In this document: positions 22,574-64,000 of the stretch, piece after piece
How positions within the stretch are numbered: the first letter of the stretch is position 1
Layout: each line of letters starts with the position of its first letter
Source: Geoglobus acetivorans
GTDB taxonomy: Archaea > Halobacteriota > Archaeoglobi > Archaeoglobales > Archaeoglobaceae
Assembly (NCBI RefSeq): GCF_000789255.1
Contig: NZ_CP009552.1
Coordinates: 1,116,001-1,180,000 of the forward strand
Direction: 5' to 3'
Length of the DNA stretch: 64,000 nt
The notes under the pieces: generated by a model
Told to the model about the DNA's origin: nothing
What the model saw: only the letters and a program-made list of their open reading frames with translations
Database searches by the model: none
Translations under genes and position numbers: made by a program

Positions 22574-22646
22574 GGGTCCGTGGTCTAGTGGTTATGACGC
22601 TGCCCTTACGAGGCAGTGATCGCCGGTTCGAATCCGGCCGGACCCA
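22574..22646 (+). tRNA. tRNA-Val (anticodon TAC), occupied by an integrated element
   Basis: Acceptor GGGTCCG/CGGACCC, discriminator A; anticodon stem CTGCC/GGCAG with loop CTTACGA; T-arm GCCGG-TTCGAAT-CCGGC. The part from the anticodon loop to the 3' end is repeated at 30907-30950, so it is the attachment site of the element to its right and was probably supplied by that element. Confidence 0.96.
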
Positions 22647-22807
22647 CTGTAATTTCCTGCCAGAGGATGATTTACCCACCTTAGAAACTCCAGAAGACGG
22701 TCCTCAAGAAACTGGGACAGGTTAGGGATGTATTCCCTTGAAGCTTCCAGGACATCCTTCCGAACAGTCAGGCTGACACGAACCTTCCCAAGGTTTGGAC
22801 GAGGCAT
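22592..22807 (-). CDS. Integrase N-terminal fragment, int(N)
   Basis: Starts ATG 22807 (MPRPNLGKVRVSL), then a helical segment with REYIPNLSQFLEDRLLEFL and NHPLAGNYSG, after which it reads antisense through the tRNA-Val 3' half (SGRIRTGDHCLVR) and stops in the tRNA 5' half. Residues 1-68 would join int(C) in the circular form, giving an integrase of about 396 residues. In the integrated state it lacks the catalytic domain. Confidence 0.85.
   Translation of the reverse strand: MPRPNLGKVRVSLTVRKDVLEASREYIPNLSQFLEDRLLEFLRWVNHPLAGNYSGSGRIRTGDHCLVRAAS
22603..22672 (+). repeat. Left attachment site (attL)
   Basis: Starts CCCTTACGAGGC in the tRNA-Val anticodon loop and extends 26 bases past the tRNA end. 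Compared with attR it differs at five of 70 positions. Two of these are the first pair of the T-stem (G-C here, C-G there), so tRNA pairing is kept in both copies. Confidence 0.9.
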
Positions 22808-22947
22808 AATGAAATAACATACGCATAAAATGATAAAGTTAGCGGGAGCTGTAATAAAATAAAAAATAAGAGTTTAGAGTAAAAAAGAGTTTATTATTAT
22901 ATTCCCCAGTGAGGGTGTTCTCTTACTCTTTTACTCTTCTCTTCTAA

Positions 22948-23241
22948 TTGGACATATTGGACACATTGGACACGGGACATGACACCCTTCAACTTGGACA
23001 CGTTGGACACATTGGACACAGGGTTCGACACACCTTAACCTCACAAAATTATATGTTTGTTTACTGTGTCCAATATGTCCAAGTGAAATCTGAGGAATCT
23101 GACAGGAGTTTCAACCGAGAACAGAATGAAAAGTATTGGACATGGGACTATACTCCTCCTTCAACTGGGGTTATCTCTTAAACTCCCAACTCATCCCTTA
23201 GATTGTCTTCTCATCATGACTGTTTTTGGACATATTGGACA
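22948..23241. repeat. Nine-base iterons, probable replication origin of the element
   Basis: Eleven copies of TTGGACA: direct at 22948, 22957, 22966, 22994, 23003, 23012, 23136, 23226 and 23235, and inverted (TGTCCAA) at 23067 and 23076. Within clusters the period is exactly 9 bases (TTGGACAYA). Iterons next to a replication initiator gene are typical origins in plasmids. Apart from these repeats, the 620 bases between int(N) and the regulator (22808-23428) hold no convincing gene. Confidence 0.7.
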
Positions 23242-23428
23242 TCCACAGGAAATGGTGGTGTTAGCATGTGGCATAGTATGTTGTTATTGAAAACATTAGA
23301 ACTTTTGACTAACGCCCCCGACCTTTTCAAGCTTTATATTTGCAATAAATTCCAAATGTACTATGGAGATTGACGTCAAGAAAGATAAGATCAATCAGAT
23401 ACTATTCATCGGAAGACAAGATAAGATT

Positions 23429-24151
23429 TCAATCAAGAAGCTGAGATAGTTGCTCCTTGTACTTCTCTTTCCTGATCTCTGAAAATTTCAGAAACTCCTC
23501 CTTCACGTTCTCTGGGATTACATCAAGGATTTTCTCACCTGTAATTAAAAGCAAGGCATATAATTTTGAAAGGGTGTCCTTTAGTTCATCATCAATTTTG
23601 ATCTGCTCTGTTCCAGTGTGGATCACCCTATAATGCTGAAGCTGCACTGTTGGAAGCCACTCAAACACGATTTTCCACCCTTTATCAGTGAGTACTAACC
23701 TGTTGTCCTCAAATTTAACCCAACCAGCTGAAACCATATTTAGCACTAAATCAGATAGTCTCTCATCGACATCAATATCTAAAGCAATGAAGTTCAATAA
23801 CAAATCTAGGGCTCGATAAAGTTCGTGATTAATTTTTTCTTCTTCAAATTCTTTGTCATAATTTTCAGATTCCAAAATCGTTATGAGTTTGTTGAGTTCC
23901 TCTTTCCTTATTCTGCCAAGTTCTTTCAATTTTTCGAAGTTTAGCGTATAGATTTTCTTTCTTCTGTCTTCTCTGTCGATTTTTTCTTCGATTAACCCTA
24001 TTTTTAGGAGATCTTTTAGATGTTTTGCCAAAACAGGATCAGAAAGTTTTGTTTTCATTTTCAACTCCGCCCATGTTTTCTCCCCACTCGCTAAAAGTTG
24101 TAAGATTTTCCTCTTGCTATCACTCAGTACTTTTAACCCTGTATATTTCAT
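23429..24151 (-). CDS. Winged-helix transcriptional regulator of the element
   Basis: 240 residues. The N-terminal ArsR-like winged helix (about 5-75) has SDSKRKILQLLASG, a recognition helix around LSDPVLAKHLKDL, and a basic wing DREDRRKKIY. A helical C-terminal domain of unknown role follows. ATG 24151 is preferred over GTG 24160. Its promoter region contains four ACTAAGT half-sites, so it probably represses itself and the divergent gene (inference). Confidence 0.75.
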   Translation of the reverse strand: MKYTGLKVLSDSKRKILQLLASGEKTWAELKMKTKLSDPVLAKHLKDLLKIGLIEEKIDREDRRKKIYTLNFEKLKELGRIRKEELNKLITILESENYDKEFEEEKINHELYRALDLLLNFIALDIDVDERLSDLVLNMVSAGWVKFEDNRLVLTDKGWKIVFEWLPTVQLQHYRVIHTGTEQIKIDDELKDTLSKLYALLLITGEKILDVIPENVKEEFLKFSEIRKEKYKEQLSQLLD

Positions 24152-24158
24152 ACCAACC

Positions 24159-24224
24159 ACTAAGTAACTAAGTGTTACCGAAACATTTAAATTTTTTGAG
24201 TTCTTTACTTAGTATGTACTAAGT
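24159..24224. promoter_or_regulatory. Operator cluster between the divergent regulators
   Basis: A perfect 18-base palindrome ACTTAGTA-TG-TACTAAGT spans 24207-24224, and two direct ACTAAGT half-sites lie at 24159-24165 and 24168-24174, just before the minus-strand gene. Between them is AT-rich ATTTAAATTTTTTG usable as TATA in both directions. The arrangement covers both promoters. Confidence 0.7.
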
Positions 24225-24241
24225 GATTGAGGTGATAATTA

Positions 24242-24433
24242 GTGGTGGGAACGCTAAGGGATTACGGGATGATCCAGCTTAACATAACTGTATATCCAGA
24301 ACACGCTAAAATCATTGATAAAATTCTGAAAAAGCAGTATTCAAAACCTATTGCCCACAAATCTGCTTCTGAAATTGTAAGACGGGCAATTGAGCATTAT
24401 GCAGAGTTTCTCGGGGTAAGATTAGATGCTTAA
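24242..24433 (+). CDS. Ribbon-helix-helix (CopG/Arc-like) DNA-binding protein
   Basis: 63 residues. A beta strand IQLNITVYP is followed by two helices (HAKIIDKILKK and SASEIVRRAIEHYAEFLG), the CopG/RHH pattern. GTG 24242 follows a GAGGTGAT ribosome site; ATG 24269 is an alternative. It sits directly before the replication gene and may control copy number (inference). Confidence 0.65.
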   Translation: MVGTLRDYGMIQLNITVYPEHAKIIDKILKKQYSKPIAHKSASEIVRRAIEHYAEFLGVRLDA

Positions 24434-24454
24434 AAATTAGAAAGGGAGGGGCAC

Positions 24455-27430
24455 ATGCTGGTCGGAACTTCAGAAAATGGAGGGTCCAAGGGATATTTAA
24501 ACGGTGGGGTTCGAGGTTTCCTGGATTTCATAGTCTCACCAAGCAGAAACAGACTCCTCGAAATTCGACTAATCGAGAAGGGAAAAGCCAGATCCCACTT
24601 CTTCTCCTCAACTGGTGAAGCTCTCTCATTCCTCTCCTCCCGCAGCTTCAACGGTTCAAACGTTTATTACGGCGTTCTCCCTAGGAAAGATAGGGCTGGG
24701 AACAAGGAGGCTGTGGTTGATAAAGCTGATGTCTGCTGGGTGGATCTGGATGTTCTAAGCCTTGAGGAGTGTAAAGATCTGGACCCAGAGGAGATCTGGA
24801 GAAGGTGTTTTGACGTTCACTATCGGGCCTGCGAAAAACTCTCAGGGCATGGCATAACTCCCACTTTTGCGGTCTTCACAGGTCATGGTGTTCAGATCCT
24901 GTTCAAGCTGAGCCGTGAGGTTCCGAAGGAGGAGATTGAGAAGCTGAATTCCATCCTCATCTCTTTCCTGAGCGAATTCAGGGCTGACAACAAGGCCAAA
25001 GACTGTGCAAGGGTGTTAAGACTTCCCGGTTTCTACAACTTCAAGGATCCGGAGAAGCCCATCAAGGCCGAGATCATAGAGTTCAGCCCAACATCCAGCG
25101 TTGATCCAGAGCTCATCCTCTCCCTGCCGGTCGAAAGGCCCTTTGAATCCTCCCACACTGGGGAAAACTCACCCTCTCCCACTCTTCCTCCCACCTCTCA
25201 AAAAGTAATCTGGAAGAGGCTGGACAGAGAAACCAAGGAGAAGATAATCACCCAGATCTCTGAAGTTTACAGGAAGGGCCACAGGCAGAGCCTGGTCTTC
25301 CACCTGTCAGGTTATCTGGCCAAGTCTGAGATACATCCCTCTGACTGTGCTGAAGTTGTCCACAGAATCGTTCTCTCAAAGTCTGATGAGGAAGCTGAGG
25401 AGAGGTTTGAGGCTGTAGCCTGGAGTTATGGAAGGGTTTCAGCTGATGAGGATGTAATTAATTCGATTTACGAGTTTGCCAGACTGCACAAAATTGAGAG
25501 GGAGAAGATATCCAGCTGGGTTAAGTCTGCAAGTAAAGGAGATTCGGGGAAGCTTAGGGGGAGTTACAACCAGCTGAGGGATGAGATCAGGGAGATTCTT
25601 AAGGAGGATGGAAAGAATGAGGATGAGGCCTCAACCATAGCCATTGATTTCGTTTCAAGACTTGAGGATCTTGTTGGCCAGCCTGTTGAGAAATCGGTTA
25701 TTGGAGTTCCCGTTAAGATCAGTAAATCTGGAAAAGGGTTCAGGGTTTCATTTGTCAACAATCCGGATAAGGGGATTGCTAAGGTAAAATACCCACTGGA
25801 CGGCTGGGAGGTTCTTGAATACGACTACATAACTTCGTTCTGCATTGAGAGGGTTAAGGTTCTGGCCGATCCTTCAACTGGAGACAGGGAATATATCATT
25901 ACGATAAGGTATCCTGGTAAAGGGATCGAGAGAACTTCCCCACCTCTGAAAGTTGAGGAATTAATTGAATGGTTCAAGGAGCAGGAAGGAATAAGGAAAC
26001 TCCAGATTTTGAGGGATGCTGTCAGCTCATTACTGGATGCTTTTGAAACAAGGGGAAGGGCTGAGATTAAGCATACCTCTTTAGCCACTGGGTTTGTCGA
26101 GGTTGATGGAAGGCTGGAATTCTTCAATTACGAAAGCTCACCTGTCAGAATTCCTGAGCCTTCAAAGGAAGGACTGAGAAGAGCTTTAACAATCCTTGAT
26201 GAGCTGGCCAGGAAATACAATCATGCGGATGGTTTTGTTGCAGGAGTTCTTTTCGGAATTATCCAGCCTCTTGGATACGTTAAGAGACAGAACCACGTCA
26301 GGAGTTTTCATTTAATGCTCACAGGAGAGCCCAAGACTGGGAAGAGCACAATTGGAGATATAATTCTCGCAATGTGGGGATGTCCGAAGAAAAAGCCGTT
26401 CTATGTTTCCGGACAATCAATTAAATCTGTTGCGAGACTGGGTTCTTTTCTGGATTCAACCTCTCTTGTTATCTCAATCAACGAGGTGAGAGACTCCATC
26501 ACCATTCCTGAAGTTTCTGACATGCTGAAGAATGCAAGATCAGAGCTAACGATTAGAGACAGGTATGAGGGAAAGAACAGGATAAGAACGTTCCACTCCA
26601 GGGCCTCAGTTTTCATGACCACCAATTACCTGCCAATGCTGAAGGATAAGGGCCTGATTGAGTCTTTCATGATCTTCGAGTTCACAGTTAAGCAGAAGCC
26701 GGGCAAGGAGGAGAGGGATGAGTTTGCCAGATGGTTCTCTGAGATTGAAAAGGATCTGGCATATATCGGTGCATGGCTGGTAAAATTCTACACTGAGAAC
26801 TGGGAGAAAGTCAAGCCCCACATAATGAAAGAGGACTTTATCGAGCCGGGAAGGAAGGTTTTAAGGTATCTGTATGCTGAGGCCGGGCTTGAGGTTCCTG
26901 AGTGGGTGGATAAGCCGTTAACTCCTGCAGAGATTGAGGAGGAGATTGATGAGCTGGATCTTATTGTTTCAACGATTAAGAAAGACATTCTGCAGGCTGT
27001 CAAGGATGTCGGTGTTTCTCTGCATGCTGAGGGAATGGAGAGCTGGGCTGGAAGGATTGAGGAGCTGAAAAGACTGGATGCTCTGCCTGAATATTTAAAA
27101 GCTAAAAAAGACTTGTCCAAGATTTACATTAAACCTGAAATTGTCGAATCTGTCCGGAGAAGAACCGGATACGAGATTGCAGGAGGATTAAGAAATATTG
27201 CCGATAAATACGGTTTCAAATACGATAAAACACCTGACGGAAGAGGTAGGGCTATAGTCCTCTATTATGACGAATTTCTAAGACTTCTCGGAGAATCGGA
27301 TGAATCGGAGAAAGAAGCGGACTCTTCTGGGGTAGTCAATGAGGTGGAGTTTGACATGACTGAATTGATGGATGATGACTGGAAACATGAGCTTTTGATG
27401 GAAGAACTTGAGAGAGGTGGGAATGAATGA
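24455..27430 (+). CDS. Primase-polymerase/helicase replication protein of the element
   Basis: 991 residues. The N-terminal part (about 70-215) fits the archaeo-eukaryotic primase (PrimPol) fold: acidic VDLD at about 96-99, GHGVQIL around 144, and LRLPGFYNFK around 188. The C-terminal part has an AAA+/SF3-like helicase core with Walker A GEPKTGKST at about 623-631, a Walker-B-like SLVISINEV, and a sensor FMTTNYLP, followed by helical and Lys/Glu-rich tail regions. ATG 24455 follows GGAGGGG. This is the likely initiator acting at the iterons. The exact family is not identified. Confidence 0.75.
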   Translation: MLVGTSENGGSKGYLNGGVRGFLDFIVSPSRNRLLEIRLIEKGKARSHFFSSTGEALSFLSSRSFNGSNVYYGVLPRKDRAGNKEAVVDKADVCWVDLDVLSLEECKDLDPEEIWRRCFDVHYRACEKLSGHGITPTFAVFTGHGVQILFKLSREVPKEEIEKLNSILISFLSEFRADNKAKDCARVLRLPGFYNFKDPEKPIKAEIIEFSPTSSVDPELILSLPVERPFESSHTGENSPSPTLPPTSQKVIWKRLDRETKEKIITQISEVYRKGHRQSLVFHLSGYLAKSEIHPSDCAEVVHRIVLSKSDEEAEERFEAVAWSYGRVSADEDVINSIYEFARLHKIEREKISSWVKSASKGDSGKLRGSYNQLRDEIREILKEDGKNEDEASTIAIDFVSRLEDLVGQPVEKSVIGVPVKISKSGKGFRVSFVNNPDKGIAKVKYPLDGWEVLEYDYITSFCIERVKVLADPSTGDREYIITIRYPGKGIERTSPPLKVEELIEWFKEQEGIRKLQILRDAVSSLLDAFETRGRAEIKHTSLATGFVEVDGRLEFFNYESSPVRIPEPSKEGLRRALTILDELARKYNHADGFVAGVLFGIIQPLGYVKRQNHVRSFHLMLTGEPKTGKSTIGDIILAMWGCPKKKPFYVSGQSIKSVARLGSFLDSTSLVISINEVRDSITIPEVSDMLKNARSELTIRDRYEGKNRIRTFHSRASVFMTTNYLPMLKDKGLIESFMIFEFTVKQKPGKEERDEFARWFSEIEKDLAYIGAWLVKFYTENWEKVKPHIMKEDFIEPGRKVLRYLYAEAGLEVPEWVDKPLTPAEIEEEIDELDLIVSTIKKDILQAVKDVGVSLHAEGMESWAGRIEELKRLDALPEYLKAKKDLSKIYIKPEIVESVRRRTGYEIAGGLRNIADKYGFKYDKTPDGRGRAIVLYYDEFLRLLGESDESEKEADSSGVVNEVEFDMTELMDDDWKHELLMEELERGGNE

Positions 27431-27621
27431 AGTATAAAACCATCAGAATAACCAGTTTCCTTGAAGCTGACAGAATAATGGGAGTTGACGGGAGAATTTA
27501 CAGGGTCGGTTATGGAATGATAGTCACTCTTCCAGAGCTGAATGCTGATGTTTTCCTGAAAAGGGGAGTAGCTGAGCCTGCTGACGAGGCGGATCTGTTT
27601 CTGGAGGAGGCGATACTGTGA
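27427..27621 (+). CDS. Small protein resembling the GINS B-domain
   Basis: 64 residues, start overlapping the stop of the primase-helicase (ATGA). The pattern ITSFLEADRIMGVDGRIYRV...VTLPELNADVFLKRGVAEPAD resembles the C-terminal B-domain of archaeal GINS51/GINS23 (FLED...F-GIDGR-YG...LPEENA-LLI-RGVAE). A free-standing B-domain could link the element's helicase to the host replisome. The similarity is from memory of the motif, so moderate confidence. Confidence 0.55.
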   Translation: MKYKTIRITSFLEADRIMGVDGRIYRVGYGMIVTLPELNADVFLKRGVAEPADEADLFLEEAIL

Positions 27622-28046
27622 GGTGTCCCCACTGCGGAAACTATATTGAAAATACGATTTGGGAGGCCCTGAAGCCGTACAGAGGAGTAACTGACAGGGT
27701 AGTTATCACCAACATAGACACGATCCTTGATGTCGGGCCAAGAATCAGGGCAATTTTCGAGGAGAAGAACGGAAAGCTGAAGATCAGAGGTTATCAGGCC
27801 GTTACTCTCAAAAAGGTTGCCAGGGCTTTAAGAGTCCCCCTTTACTACATCGAGAGAATTGATGATAGAGTCAGACTTTTCGAGTTCGACAGGTATCAGA
27901 GAGTGAATTCTGGAGAGTTCTTGAGAGCTGATCATCTAATTCCAGTCTTTTCCGGGAGTGTTGAGGAATTTGGAGACTGGATTTATAGGAAATACATCCT
28001 TCATACTCCTCCCTCATCAAAGGGGAGGAAGAAGTGGTGGAGGTGA
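27618..28046 (+). CDS. Unknown element protein with N-terminal CxxC
   Basis: 142 residues beginning MRCPHCGNYI at a GTG that overlaps the previous stop. The middle segment VTLKKVARALRVPLYYIERID looks like a helix-turn-helix, and the C-terminus is basic (KGRKKWWR). Possibly a DNA-binding partner of the replication protein. No family recognised. Confidence 0.55.
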   Translation: MRCPHCGNYIENTIWEALKPYRGVTDRVVITNIDTILDVGPRIRAIFEEKNGKLKIRGYQAVTLKKVARALRVPLYYIERIDDRVRLFEFDRYQRVNSGEFLRADHLIPVFSGSVEEFGDWIYRKYILHTPPSSKGRKKWWR

Positions 28047-28054
28047 GGAGAGGT

Positions 28055-28180
28055 ATGGACGTGCAGTCGAGATGTAGGAATGTATGGGGTCGTAGAGTAT
28101 CGGGATTTTGTAACACGTTGGAGGGCACACTGAGGGAAATTTTGGGCAGGTCTGGAGGTGGTTGTGTTGCCCCAGCATAA
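28055..28180 (+). CDS. Possible 41-residue element peptide
   Basis: Short frame from ATG 28055 just behind a GAGGTGAGGAGAGG ribosome-like stretch; Arg/Gly/Cys-rich. It overlaps the start of the next gene. No other support. Confidence 0.25.
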   Translation: MDVQSRCRNVWGRRVSGFCNTLEGTLREILGRSGGGCVAPA

Positions 28181-28403
28181 GCAGAACGCGGGCAAAAAGT
28201 ACCTTGCAGGAATGGTGGATTTTGGAATACTTGGCAGGAGAGAGGCATACCTCTTCAAGAACGAAAAAAGAGAGAAAGACACTCAACCGGCCTTCAGACT
28301 GGTTATCAGGGAAGGAGACACATGGAAGGAAGTTGGCGCTTTCTGGGTCAGAGAGGTCAAGCAGAAAGAGCCTGAGGAGGAAGTTTTCGACATGACGGGG
28401 TGA
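28164..28403 (+). CDS. Unknown small element protein
   Basis: About 79 residues, charged, with a beta-rich segment KKYLAGMVDFGILGRREAY followed by FRLVIREGDTWKEVGAFWV. GGAGGTG at 28154-28160 points to GTG 28164 or TTG 28167 as start. Same strand and tight spacing as its neighbours, so it is probably co-transcribed. Function unknown; the two-strand pattern recalls small nucleic-acid-binding folds. Confidence 0.5.
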   Translation: MLPQHKQNAGKKYLAGMVDFGILGRREAYLFKNEKREKDTQPAFRLVIREGDTWKEVGAFWVREVKQKEPEEEVFDMTG

Positions 28404-28408
28404 TTTAG

Positions 28409-28777
28409 ATGGCAGAGCAGAAAAAAGACCACTGTATCGCTCACTTTGAAATGCGAGGAGAGAGTGAAGAAGGGTGCCGCATGATAATGAAATACTCAAT
28501 GGCTTTTCGTGGAACAGAGCTCGGCATTTCACGGACTGGTGAGATGGTCGAATATAGGTTTGGCAAATTCCTGAGCGTAAAAATTCCAAGAGACAGATTA
28601 TTGGAGGTTGCAGTGGACACTTTCACAATGATGCCTCTCAAACATAAGATGGAGTTCCTTAATCAGGCCTTTGAGATTCTCAATGACTCTTTGCTCACAC
28701 CCGAGCTGGCCACATGGGATGAAGAGAACCCACAGATGGGAGAGTATGAAGCTAAAGAAGAGAAGATTCATGCCTGA
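28409..28777 (+). CDS. Unknown acidic element protein
   Basis: 122 residues preceded by GGGGTGATTTAG. Contains MIMKYSMAFRGTELGISRTGEMVEYRF and a helix IPRDRLLEVAVDTFTMM; acidic C-terminus. No family recognised. Confidence 0.5.
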   Translation: MAEQKKDHCIAHFEMRGESEEGCRMIMKYSMAFRGTELGISRTGEMVEYRFGKFLSVKIPRDRLLEVAVDTFTMMPLKHKMEFLNQAFEILNDSLLTPELATWDEENPQMGEYEAKEEKIHA

Positions 28778-28827
28778 GATCCCCTTGGGTGAAAACGGCA
28801 AAATCAGTAATCTGGAGGTAGGTAATA

Positions 28828-29163
28828 TTGAAAGCCAGTAATTTTGAGAGATTTCAAACAAAAACTGAATTTTTTAAATTTGGAAGATTTTGGTGGAACG
28901 AAAGAAGACCAGAGAAGATTCTCGTGGATATTCCTTACACTCTGAAAAAACTTATTCGAGCAGGGGAGAGACTGAAAGTAACCATATATTTAAGAGATGC
29001 TACAATTGTTAAAAGCGTTTATGTGTGGAATCAAAAGACCATCCAGATTTACATTCCATCTGCATGGGATTTAAACGGGGATGAAGCTGTTGTGGCGAGA
29101 TTTGAAGCCACTTCTGAAAGTACATTCAAGGTCCTAATCTTAATTGGGGAGATGGAATTATGA
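28828..29163 (+). CDS. Unknown element protein, TTG start
   Basis: 111 residues. No ATG is available at the 5' end, but GGAGGTAGG sits about 8 bases before TTG 28828. Beta-rich middle (ILVDIPYTLKKLI, LKVTIYLRD, IQIYIPSAW). Overlaps the next gene by four bases (ATGA), so they are co-translated. Function unknown. Confidence 0.5.
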   Translation: MKASNFERFQTKTEFFKFGRFWWNERRPEKILVDIPYTLKKLIRAGERLKVTIYLRDATIVKSVYVWNQKTIQIYIPSAWDLNGDEAVVARFEATSESTFKVLILIGEMEL

Positions 29164-29513
29164 CAAGAGCTGATGTAAATATGAAATACTGGAAACGGAA
29201 GCTTGTAATCGAATTTACTCCGCTAGTCCTCTTTTTAGTAATGAACAACCTTTATACCTTCAGATACTCAGACCTCACAGGATTATTCAATTACAGATAC
29301 GTCCATAGATTCGTTTTGAAAGGGAAAGCTTTTGGAATTATCGAAAGAGTAGGTCAAAAAACCTATAGAATCTCTGAAAATTTCTTTGAGACTGTGGTAA
29401 TCACTAGAAACGGATATTACGATGACAACGCAGAGAACATACTGATAAAAGGTGGTTGGACATTCATATTTAACCCAAAATCTGTGAAAAGTGAATATAA
29501 TGAGGTTCTTTGA
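29160..29513 (+). CDS. Unknown element protein, possible winged helix
   Basis: 117 residues starting in the stop of the previous gene. The segment YRYVHRFVLKGKAFGIIERVGQKTYRIS resembles the last helix and wing of a winged-helix domain. Last gene of the plus-strand run in the element. Family not recognised. Confidence 0.45.
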   Translation: MTRADVNMKYWKRKLVIEFTPLVLFLVMNNLYTFRYSDLTGLFNYRYVHRFVLKGKAFGIIERVGQKTYRISENFFETVVITRNGYYDDNAENILIKGGWTFIFNPKSVKSEYNEVL

Positions 29514-29700
29514 CTTTCATAGGTCTGGCAAGAATACATATAAACACAAAACTGTGCATAGCCTCTAACTAAAAAACAATACCAAGTATGCTTATATTTG
29601 TGAAACTCAGGAAATTACGGGCCTCTACTCTTATTAGCCCCCTACAACGTTCAGTTTGTTCTACAGTGGTGAATTTTGTAGTCACCCCCCAAATTACTTT

Positions 29701-29747
29701 CTCGCCAAACGTCCCTTTTCCCGCTTATGCGGATGGAGTTTGGCGAG
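29701..29747. repeat. Long hairpin in the element's gene-free right part
   Basis: Perfect 10-bp outer stem CTCGCCAAAC/GTTTGGCGAG, TCC/GGA continuing after a one-base bulge, and inner hairpin CCGC-TTAT-GCGG. It lies in the 407-base stretch 29514-29920 between converging gene sets, which otherwise holds no convincing gene but has three GAGTTAA repeats near 29881-29925. Could be a terminator, a single-strand origin or a protein site. Confidence 0.6.
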
Positions 29748-29920
29748 AGAGGCGCTTGATTTTATTAAAATAGCTCCTTTAAGATTGCTATTTAAAATGT
29801 GAGCTTAAAATACATTGAACAAGACAATCATTGCATGAGATCACACACCAAAACCTCAGCATGTTCCGAGGTGATAACTGGGAGTTAACGGGTGGAAGAG
29901 AGTGAGTTAAAGGGAGAGAG

Positions 29921-31012
29921 TTAATCCCCAGTGTGGGGGAGCATGGAAACCAGCTTCTCCAACTTAACCCCCGGTGGTACAAGGTTAACCTTTCCCCACT
30001 TCTCCATGTATTGCCGATAGATCTCGGACGGGAGTTTCCCATCATAGCTCTGAACGTCCAGACTGCCTGTATTGTGTGCCATGATGTAATCTCTCAGTCC
30101 AGGGTGGACCATCAGAACGTTGTTGCACATCTGCTCGAAGAACTTCCTGAAGTGGGATGGCTGAATCCTCATTCCTGTATGATGGGCTTTAATGTCCAAG
30201 TCGATCAGCACAATTCTAAGGGAGTTGTAGGGGAAGACTGGAACACTGTCCTTGGCATTAATGAGGTGTCTGAATTCGATCACAGGTTTAATCCATTCAA
30301 CAACAACAGGGTGAAGAGGGACCCAGTGAGGGAAGGACTCTTTATCCTTCTCCTCAGGTATCCAGAGCATAGGAGGATTTCTTTTCAGTGCTTTTTCAAA
30401 ATCCTCAAAGGTTAGCCTGTCAGTTGTGGACTGAGGCCTCTGTCCTGTGTAGGCCAAAAACAGGGTGTTTGCTATGTGCTTAATCCTGAAGTATGCATAC
30501 TTCCAGGGTGGATCATAGGGAGATTTTGGAGTGTTGTAAATCCCTTTTATCACATTCTCCACATCAACAGGTCTGATGATGATTTTGTTCAGTTTCTTTG
30601 ATTGTCTTTGCGGTCTGTCAAGGACTTCTTTTAGCTCTCTGAAGGTCAAATCACCAGTTTCCTTATAAAGATATTCAAGGAAAGCCCTAGTGTTGTCATA
30701 AAACTTTTTCTGGGACTCATACCCGAAATTACGCATATACCAGGACTGAAACCTAAGGAGGGATTCTCTTGTGATTTTTCCACCTGTATGTTCGAGAAGT
30801 TTCTTCAGCGTTTTCTCTATCCAGATCTTTGACCGCTCAGATTTCACCTTAGAGAACCTGAATTCAAGATATCTCTGTGCTACGGATTCTAAATCAGAAA
30901 AATAACCCCTTACGAGGCAGTGATCCCCGGTTCGAATCCGGGCGGACCCACTGTAATTTACTGCCGGAGGGTGATTAGCGAATTCTGAGGACTCCAAAAA
31001 TTTCTTCTCCAC
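29921..31012 (-). CDS. Tyrosine recombinase catalytic part, int(C), fused in frame to an older int(N) fragment
   Basis: Residues after the att core (positions 29921-30906) form the core-binding and catalytic domains of an SSV-type integrase. Box I Arg is in AYTGQRPQST, the second-box HxxR in SHFRKFF, then a late His in MAHNTGSLD and a candidate Tyr nucleophile in IYRQYMEKW. Because the DNA right of att is another int(N) remnant in the same frame, an open frame of 363 codons exists from GTG 31012, though it lacks most of the N-terminal domain. Whether this chimera is made is unknown. Confidence 0.8.
   Translation of the reverse strand: MEKKFLESSEFANHPPAVNYSGSARIRTGDHCLVRGYFSDLESVAQRYLEFRFSKVKSERSKIWIEKTLKKLLEHTGGKITRESLLRFQSWYMRNFGYESQKKFYDNTRAFLEYLYKETGDLTFRELKEVLDRPQRQSKKLNKIIIRPVDVENVIKGIYNTPKSPYDPPWKYAYFRIKHIANTLFLAYTGQRPQSTTDRLTFEDFEKALKRNPPMLWIPEEKDKESFPHWVPLHPVVVEWIKPVIEFRHLINAKDSVPVFPYNSLRIVLIDLDIKAHHTGMRIQPSHFRKFFEQMCNNVLMVHPGLRDYIMAHNTGSLDVQSYDGKLPSEIYRQYMEKWGKVNLVPPGVKLEKLVSMLPHTGD
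30907..30976 (+). repeat. Right attachment site (attR)
   Basis: Copy of the tRNA-Val 3' part beginning CCCTTACGAGGC, with T-stem CCCGG/CCGGG instead of GCCGG/CCGGC and three more changes outside the tRNA. It is followed to the right by the degraded second int(N), not by unique chromosomal sequence. Confidence 0.88.
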
Positions 31013-31109
31013 GAAATCGGACAGATTTGGAAAGCATTGGCGGACGGCGCTGAGAAATTTTTGCTTATGGTTGCGGTCAACTTGGCTTTTTTGAGGTATC
31101 GGGAGCCAT
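30907..31109 (-). pseudogene. Degraded int(N) of an older element
   Basis: Reading leftward from ATG 31109 (MAPDTSK), the frame must shift twice, at a run of six A and a run of five A, to give a sequence that follows int(N): a KAKLTATISK stretch, then FLSAVRQCFPNLSDFVEKKFLESSEFANHPP and NYSG into the att core. The alignment with int(N) at 22807 is clear over about 60 residues (PNLS, NHP, NYSGS shared). Confidence 0.75.
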
Positions 31110-31190
31110 GAAATAATTCTATGTGTGTAAAATGTTAAACCTTTGTCTCAAAACATGAATTAAGTCAGTCACCTGTATTCCCCCTTTTCT

Positions 31191-31440
31191 CTACTTCAAA
31201 AGCACATAATCTTCCCCTTCAACGAAGGTCTTGGCCTGTAATCTCCAACCCTCTGCGGTAGATGTTACTGTGGCCTCAGGTTTGACAAAATCAGCCTTCC
31301 GTTCTCCTCAAAAATCTTCAGCTTGTCCGGAATTCCGGTCTTTTCTTGGGAGTTTGCCCATTTCCTTGAAAATCTCTTTTCGAATTTCAGATTTCGGACT
31401 GTCCCATAAAATCTACAGACCTGCAGCCATGACCTCCAAT
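31191..31440 (-). pseudogene. Frameshifted gene remnant next to the older int(N)
   Basis: Three successive minus-strand frames give coding-like pieces that join into one protein end: EIRKEIFKEMGKLPRKD, then PDKLKIFEENGRLILS, then KPEATVTSTAEGW and AKTFVEGEDYVLLK ending at TAG 31191-31193. At least two frameshifts separate them. No family recognised. It lies in the gene-free stretch 31110-31528 and fits decay of an older element or its host flank. Confidence 0.5.
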
Positions 31441-63683: not shown

Positions 63684-63757
63684 GGGGCCGTAGGGTAGCC
63701 TGGTTATCCTTCGGGCTTTGGGAGCCCGTGACCCGAGTTCAAATCTCGGCGGCCCCA
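63684..63757 (+). tRNA. tRNA-Pro (anticodon TGG)
   Basis: Acceptor GGGGCCG/CGGCCCC, discriminator A; anticodon stem CGGGC/GCCCG with loop TTTGGGA; T-arm GAGTTCAAATCTC. Near-identical to the tRNA-Pro(GGG) at 16024 apart from the anticodon arm. Confidence 0.96.
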
Positions 63758-63841: not shown

Positions 63842-64000
63842 AATAGAATTAACAGACGTGATGACAAGAAAAATCAGGAGAGAGACGTGCTGAACGCAGT
63901 CAGGGAGTACATCCCCAACCTATCCGATTTCGTTGAAAAGAAGCTTCTGGAGTTTCTAAGCTACGTAAACCACCCTCTCGGAGTGGAATGGAGTAGCCCC
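63842..64000 (+). pseudogene. Third int(N) fragment, cut by the window edge
   Basis: Plus-strand frame with VLNAVREYIPNLSDFVEKK and LLEFLSYVNHPLGVEWS, clearly related to int(N) at 22807 and to the degraded copy at 31109. No ATG start is visible upstream; the frame is open back into the tRNA-Pro gene, and GTG 63887 is the only likely start. Its att end points right, so the target site lies beyond the window. Confidence 0.65.

Follow-up and report, generated by a model that had tools for sequence, protein, structure and literature searches.

The chromosome of Geoglobus acetivorans is a single contig of 1,860,815 bp, and its positions 1116001-1180000 (64 kb, hereafter the window, whose numbering is used below) contain an element integrated in a tRNA-Val(UAC) gene. 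This gene (anticodon TAC in the DNA) was located by ARAGORN at 22574-22647 on the forward strand, and a direct repeat of 70 nt begins at its nucleotide 30, within the anticodon loop. The left copy (attL, 22603-22672, forward strand) and the right copy (attR, 30907-30976, forward strand) are identical at 65 of 70 positions and spaced by exactly 8304 bp, in agreement with the target gene and element size given by an earlier reading of the same DNA (the original prediction). That reading had described a 70-bp repeat starting in the anticodon loop at both ends; the repeat is present, but only ~45 bp of it, the 3' half of the tRNA, form the att core. The last 25 bp belong to the N-terminal part of an integrase gene, int(N); both copies have them owing to another int(N) that begins immediately beyond the right end. 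Elsewhere in the region, elements have a core of 42-50 bp that stops where the tRNA stops. Insertion into a tRNA gene with the 3' half duplicated at the far end is a feature of SSV-type elements by mechanism, and it is found here.

The direction of integration could be deduced from the repeat copies. They differ at positions 22622 and 22638, which pair with each other in the T-stem, and this pair is G-C in the left copy and C-G in the right one. The C-G form is present in the tRNA-Val(UAC) genes of five Geoglobus genomes (G001, G002, G003, G004 and G006) and of G057, which belongs to another Archaeoglobi lineage. The right copy agrees with the tRNA 3' half of these relatives at 44 of 44 nucleotides, whereas the left copy differs. 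Therefore, attR bears the original host 3' half, and the present tRNA gene is chimeric, with a chromosomal 5' part and an element-derived 3' part. Judging from these positions, the rebuilt tRNA-Val carries a different, compensated T-stem pair and the direction of integration is fixed. The crossover is confined to 22603-22621, a run of 19 identical bases in the loop and stem of the anticodon arm.

Further investigation of the two ends revealed the parts of one integrase gene, both intact and on the reverse strand. The left part, int(N) (22592-22807), is an open reading frame (ORF) of 71 aa composed of a ribbon-helix-helix (RHH)-like N-terminal module and the translated att core. The right part, int(C) (29921-30951), was identified as the catalytic part of a tyrosine recombinase on the basis of an AlphaFold2 model, Foldseek and conserved residues. 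The two parts had been claimed to share one reading frame across the att core, and their failure to align to one integrase had been named as grounds for abandoning the proposal. They do read in one frame, and the joined product of 396 aa aligns from end to end, through the att core, with an integrase that G057 encodes in one unsplit gene (234 of 399 positions identical, 59%; E 2e-174). Thus, the att site splits one gene in frame, leaving int(N) beside the tRNA and int(C) at the opposite end of the element.

It should be noted that this integrase does not belong to the catalytic family expected of SSV-type elements. Both fold and residues place it in the tyrosine recombinase superfamily: the R-K-R-H-Y catalytic positions are conserved, and the int(C) model (predicted local distance difference test score, pLDDT, of 83) matched the recombinases of phage Brujita (E 1e-6) and lambda, XerD and XerA, but the SSV1 catalytic domain only at E 0.2. 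A Pfam search with PF16795 (Phage_integr_3) gave no match in the integrase or in any of 13 homologs, whereas the integrases of SSV1, pT26-2 and a tRNA-Asp element of the same genome matched at 1e-46 to 1e-61; PF00589 was matched weakly by five proteins of the integrase-plus-homolog set (best 3e-4). Comparison by hhalign gave 5% probability for the integrase group against the PF16795 group, 83% (E 8.5e-6) against a PF00589-dominated group and 98.6% between the latter two groups. These numbers are supporting only, as small alignments underlie them and the integrase of AvPV1, third member of the PF00589-dominated group, proved to be a PF16795 protein. The Pfam result provides the firm basis, at the level of sequence, for placing the protein outside PF16795. 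The integrase is thus a tyrosine recombinase of a catalytic family outside PF16795 with the same kind of RHH/att N-terminal module. A 2021 review of archaeal integrases (PMC8371274) named PF16795 as the domain of suicidal integrases and traced them to a single event. The label SSV-type in the original prediction therefore holds for the mechanism (tRNA target, integrase split by att), and not for descent, because the PF16795 domain required is lacking and, by its catalytic domain, the protein is not a relative of SSV integrases. Similarly, the element shares with SSV1 and other elements having PF16795 suicidal integrases (SSV, pTN3 and pT26-2) an attP within the integrase gene, a tRNA target and a split into int(N) and int(C) on integration, and differs from them in its catalytic domain and in having no SSV virion genes.

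Homologs of the integrase were identified in Archaeoglobi and in Methanoregula-like methanogens, and no match was found among phages or in the plasmid collection. Duplications of att within the ORF of a non-PF16795 integrase of this type were observed in five other genomes, at tRNA-Arg (G001), tRNA-Pro (G010), tRNA-Val(GAC) (G036), tRNA-Val(TAC) (G009) and tRNA-Val(CAC) (G128), and in two of these, G001 and G010, an int(N) could be recognized next to the tRNA. Such integrases, with the tRNA att inside their own ORF, run counter to the view of a single, PF16795-only origin. In addition, the tRNA-Asp element carries an int(N) that is 65% identical over 51 aa to that of the tRNA-Val element, and its int(C) is a PF16795 protein (1.3e-46), so that two elements in one genome have similar int(N) on unrelated catalytic domains. 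In pairwise alignment, the N-termini of the pT26-2 and SSV1 integrases were not more similar to int(N) than shuffled sequences, and the former showed only a weak CcdA/RHH match. As far as sequence can tell, these observations favor the existence of a second catalytic lineage of suicidal integrases with an N-terminal module of the same kind, and we infer that N-terminal modules may be exchanged between integrases. A C-terminal remnant of the same integrase type was also found ~5 kb from tRNA-Ser(CGA) in the host (G000:C1 ~222430; L155 5930-6118), and a similar remnant is present near tRNA-Ser(CGA) in G001.

Outside the right end of the element, a diverged and frameshifted second int(N) is present (30977-31112, reverse strand). 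Its minus-strand translation is QVDRNHKQKFLSAVRQCFPNLSDFVEKKFLESSEFANHP, and the frameshift parts it from an ATG near 31112. Outside the repeat, it aligned to the left int(N) with a score of 55, which none of 2000 shuffles reached (mean 18.2, standard deviation 3.8). The int(C) frame runs through the att core into this relic, so that a chimeric ORF of 363 aa (29921-31012, reverse strand) can start at a GTG at 31012. The adjoining region (31105-31393, reverse strand) matches a unit that directly follows an int(N) after tRNA-Lys in G003 and after tRNA-Ile in G002. By eye, this region had seemed to be of the RelE/ParE type, an identity that found no match in Pfam and is not claimed. The simplest reading of these sequences is that an older element probably occupied the same tRNA-Val gene and was mostly lost. 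Alternatively, the second int(N) might stem from a tandem arrangement of the same plasmid that was later partly deleted, as it shares the int(C) frame and shows homology to the left int(N). However, the two int(N) are only ~54% identical over 61 aa, so the second is no recent copy, and the region beside it matches a unit near other tRNA genes in other genomes and matches nothing within the element. We thus consider a tandem origin quite unlikely and prefer the relic of an older element.

The genes within the element suggest a small replicon. Between int(N) and a divergent regulatory gene is a cluster of 11 iterons with the sequence TTGGACA(C/T), partly at 9-bp spacing (22948-23243), whereas in 95% of shuffles no 7-mer occurred more than 4 times; all 14 copies of the iteron 7-mer in the window fall inside the element. 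This cluster is a putative replication origin. The divergent gene (23429-24160, reverse strand) encodes a winged-helix (wHTH), ArsR-like regulator (Pfam HTH_5, 1e-7), with homologs at the same place in related elements. The genes that follow are on the forward strand and begin with a CopG-like RHH regulator (24242-24433; weak RHH_1 match, 58-81% identity to the RHH proteins before the primase in relatives), directly upstream of a 991-aa protein (24455-27430) in which a RepB-like archaeo-eukaryotic primase (PrimPol) is fused to a superfamily 3/P4-type helicase (RepB_primase 1.6e-4; DUF5906; TIGR01613 primase_Cterm 2.9e-4). Both the PrimPol-helicase and the regulators had been foreseen in the original prediction. 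The helicase half is 27-32% identical to relatives, and the primase half is unlike most of them: the G001 relative has a Prim-Pol domain of PF09250, and a clearly similar N-terminus was found only in G029 (38-49%). Thus, according to these alignments, members of the plasmid family seem to have exchanged primase domains. Downstream are a 142-aa protein with an N-terminal CxxC (27618-28046), which is 35-77% identical in eight related elements and gave a poor structure model (pLDDT 50), and a DUF736-like small protein (28158-28403; Pfam DUF736 2.7e-5, 57-80% in relatives). Proteins of 122 aa (28409-28777) and 117 aa (29160-29513) had no match in the family searches, and the 111-aa protein between them (28828-29163) has a homolog in the G041 element (31%, 8e-7).

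Between the primase-helicase and the 142-aa protein, a 64-aa protein (27427-27621, forward strand) resembles, as a stand-alone domain, the C-terminal (B) domain of Gins51. It is similar to that domain of the host's own Gins51 (z=14, 0 of 500 shuffles) and to the N-terminus of Rep of the pleomorphic virus GacPV1 (E 1.5e-9); it also resembles two further replication proteins at their C-termini, that of the tRNA-Asp element and that of an A. veneficus element. Pfam support was weak (PF22090 at E 0.009 for the 64-aa protein and PSF1_C at 0.014 for Rep of the tRNA-Asp element). Gins51 of Thermococcus is a binding partner of both the Cdc45-like nuclease GAN and the PolD subunit DP1 (PMC7776575). It is reasonable to propose that the 64-aa protein might dock plasmid replication to the host replisome. 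The domain stands by itself in this element and is joined elsewhere to replication proteins of other kinds, which suggests that docking to the replisome could be shared by archaeal plasmids and viruses.

Searching the element proteins by tblastn, we found that conserved genes recur, with their order preserved, in elements of G001 (tRNA-Arg), G016 (tRNA-Lys), G005 and G010 (both tRNA-Pro), G041, G051 and G024. The common layout within a tRNA gene, also that of the tRNA-Val element, is int(N), iterons, wHTH, RHH, primase/helicase, 142-aa protein, DUF736-like protein, variable genes and int(C). In the G010 element, a DnaG-like replication protein takes the place of the primase-helicase. From the att duplications, the integrated element measures 9802 bp in G001 and 9936 bp in G010. 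Six relatives, including plasmid pTI1, have repeated 7-mers other than TTGGACA in the iteron slot (5-9 copies), and none clearly above chance was detected in this slot of the tRNA-Asp element. Thus, the element belongs to an iteron-bearing plasmid family, widespread in tRNA genes of Archaeoglobaceae, for which no name was found in the literature searched (most subscription papers were outside the reach of the search). The layout also bears on the possibility that the left int(N) and the right int(C) are remnants of two different lost elements and that the 8304-bp unit was never one circle. The repeated use of the site and the many stray int(N) fragments of the host would fit such an origin; on the other hand, the gene set of the interval is orderly, its content and order match intact elements elsewhere, int(N) lies beside the iterons and the divergent wHTH gene with int(C) at the other end as in relatives, and the intact, in-frame halves match one unsplit gene. 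An origin from two remnants is thus very improbable, and we regard the interval as a single element.

Assignment to a named plasmid or virus family was attempted and rejected, as the integrase had no phage or plasmid match and neither the primase, the integrase (by profile) nor the 142-aa protein had a relative in IMG/VR, where the scans reach close relatives only. This is consistent with the initial statement that the element could not be tied to any such family. A free relative of the replication gene is pTI1 of Thermococcus indicus (NZ_CP040847; 7674 bp, circular), which is similar in size, has intergenic iteron-like repeats and an RHH gene followed by a primase-helicase (32% identity over 67% of the protein); it differs in its primase N-terminus and has no annotated integrase, and other genes are not shared at E 1e-3. 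Of the core genes of the pT26-2 family, only the primase-helicase was matched, t26-22p of pT26-2 being distantly similar to its helicase part (27% (26.5%) over 34%). The tRNA-Asp(GTC) element of the same genome (G000:C1:952310-960517; L148 10811-19017; 8.2 kb) appears to be a complete SSV-type element and shares the wHTH, the RHH, a primase-helicase with Gins51-like end and a homolog of the 142-aa protein, whereas it has another replication protein (DUF3987). ArcVen-P3 of Archaeoglobus veneficus (PMC4158269) is likewise a split-integrase, SSV-like element of Archaeoglobales in a tRNA gene (9.5 kb), but by its description it lies in tRNA-Ser and has capsid and packaging genes.

We also considered whether the element is a provirus with virion genes diverged beyond recognition, or a satellite that borrows the particles of a helper virus. 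The elements of G001 and G051 with related replication genes encode a membrane protein, possibly a virion protein, in which two stretches are hydrophobic, and the host carries GacPV1, a provirus reported from G. acetivorans SBH6 (Geoglobus acetivorans pleomorphic virus 1, BK065156; PMC10919331), which begins at window ~63994 and was matched at 100% identity just past the window end, as fits a host of this species or a very close strain. However, no element protein matched a structural phage family (PHROGs), no ORF has a clear transmembrane stretch (best Kyte-Doolittle 19-mer 1.52), and the IMG/VR scans above speak in the same direction, in accordance with the original claim of no visible virion genes. 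The VP1/VP3 capsid genes of Fuselloviridae were not found, and with tblastn of all element proteins only the Gins51-like domain was shared with Thalassapleoviridae (GacPV1 and AvPV1; VP3/VP4). No defense family other than generic winged helices was matched. A provirus or satellite is therefore unlikely. GacPV1 shares the host and a Rep beginning with a Gins51-like domain, but it was rejected as the same element on size (13.4 kb), genes (rolling-circle Rep, VP3/VP4 virion genes and a classical PF00589 integrase) and place. Its start adjoins tRNA-Pro(TGG) (63684-63757) and an int(N)-like fragment. Besides the two-hydrophobic-stretch protein, the G001 element (L067 5954-8401) encodes a proline-rich protein of 543 aa and another membrane protein, which may be virion or surface genes.

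On the basis of current results, the element is very probably an integrated small plasmid, that is, an 8304-bp circle with an iteron origin, a PrimPol-helicase and a suicidal non-PF16795 tyrosine integrase, inserted at a twice-used tRNA-Val site. Several points weigh against this interpretation. The circular form is itself inferred from sequence. The closest relative, G001, is syntenic with the host at 89-93% identity in the left flank up to the tRNA-Val end and in the right flank from tRNA-His onward, and it offers no clean empty site, as other, unrelated DNA separates the two tRNA genes there. Other tRNA-Val genes of the same genome carry the G-C form of the T-stem pair, so the difference between the repeat copies could have come from gene conversion by them. 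No transfer functions are visible, and the role of the Gins51-like protein is drawn from sequence similarity. For the integrated plasmid, the following life cycle may be proposed. The free circle would replicate from the iteron origin with its own PrimPol-helicase, perhaps tethered to the host replisome by the Gins51-like adaptor, and would bear one intact 396-aa integrase gene with attP inside. Integration itself can be read from the sequence: a crossover within 22603-22621 linked the tRNA 3' half of the element with the 5' half of the chromosome, which kept the tRNA gene complete and split the integrase. As an earlier element had left its int(N) at the same tRNA, int(C) now lies in frame with a foreign, damaged int(N), giving the 363-aa chimera. 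Excision could be catalyzed by this chimera or by an incoming related integrase, the two candidate routes. The family may offer small replicons for Archaeoglobales, in which few plasmids or viruses have been described.

Finally, a profile search of the host genome identified nine int(N) copies (E < 1e-3), beside tRNA-Val (two), -Asp, -Gly, -Ala, -Lys (two) and -Asn and near -Pro, and a weak one at tRNA-Ile. The int(C) parts are far fewer, comprising the one in tRNA-Val, the PF16795 one at tRNA-Asp and remnants, and no partner att was detected within ~19 kb for most of the stray fragments. The ratio of nonsynonymous to synonymous substitution rates (dN/dS) was 0.1-0.35 for most int(N) pairs in which it could be computed, and therefore int(N) evolves as coding sequence; this low ratio may reflect life on free plasmids and shows no role for the stray copies. 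We tentatively suggest, at somewhat less than even odds, that self-splitting integrases arose more than once. The att-bearing RHH int(N) module would move between unrelated tyrosine recombinase catalytic domains when serial integration at one tRNA brings an incoming int(C) into the frame of an int(N) left there earlier, and the stray tRNA-side int(N) genes would be a standing reservoir from which chimeric integrases arise whose tRNA specificity is new. The non-PF16795 and shared-int(N) elements make the question of how suicidal integrases persist and change targets directly testable. Fragments similar to int(N), lying beside tRNA genes in antisense orientation, were observed at G000:C1 960364, 1418983, 1225559, 1466804, 1465475, 1093574 and 440474 and at window positions 63881-63982. 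The host tRNA-Lys region (L151 17476-18990) contains a 1.3-kb mini-element between two tRNA-Lys att copies, each of which has an int(N); the mini-element also holds a VapBC-like RHH-PIN pair and the decayed end of an integrase. In the tRNA-Lys element of G016 (L077 4927-5080), the int(C) ORF extends beyond att, where it reads through a stretch that may be int(N)-like, NANISDLLETKIIELI, whose similarity is weak (6 of 1000 shuffles were as good) and which perhaps marks another twice-used site.

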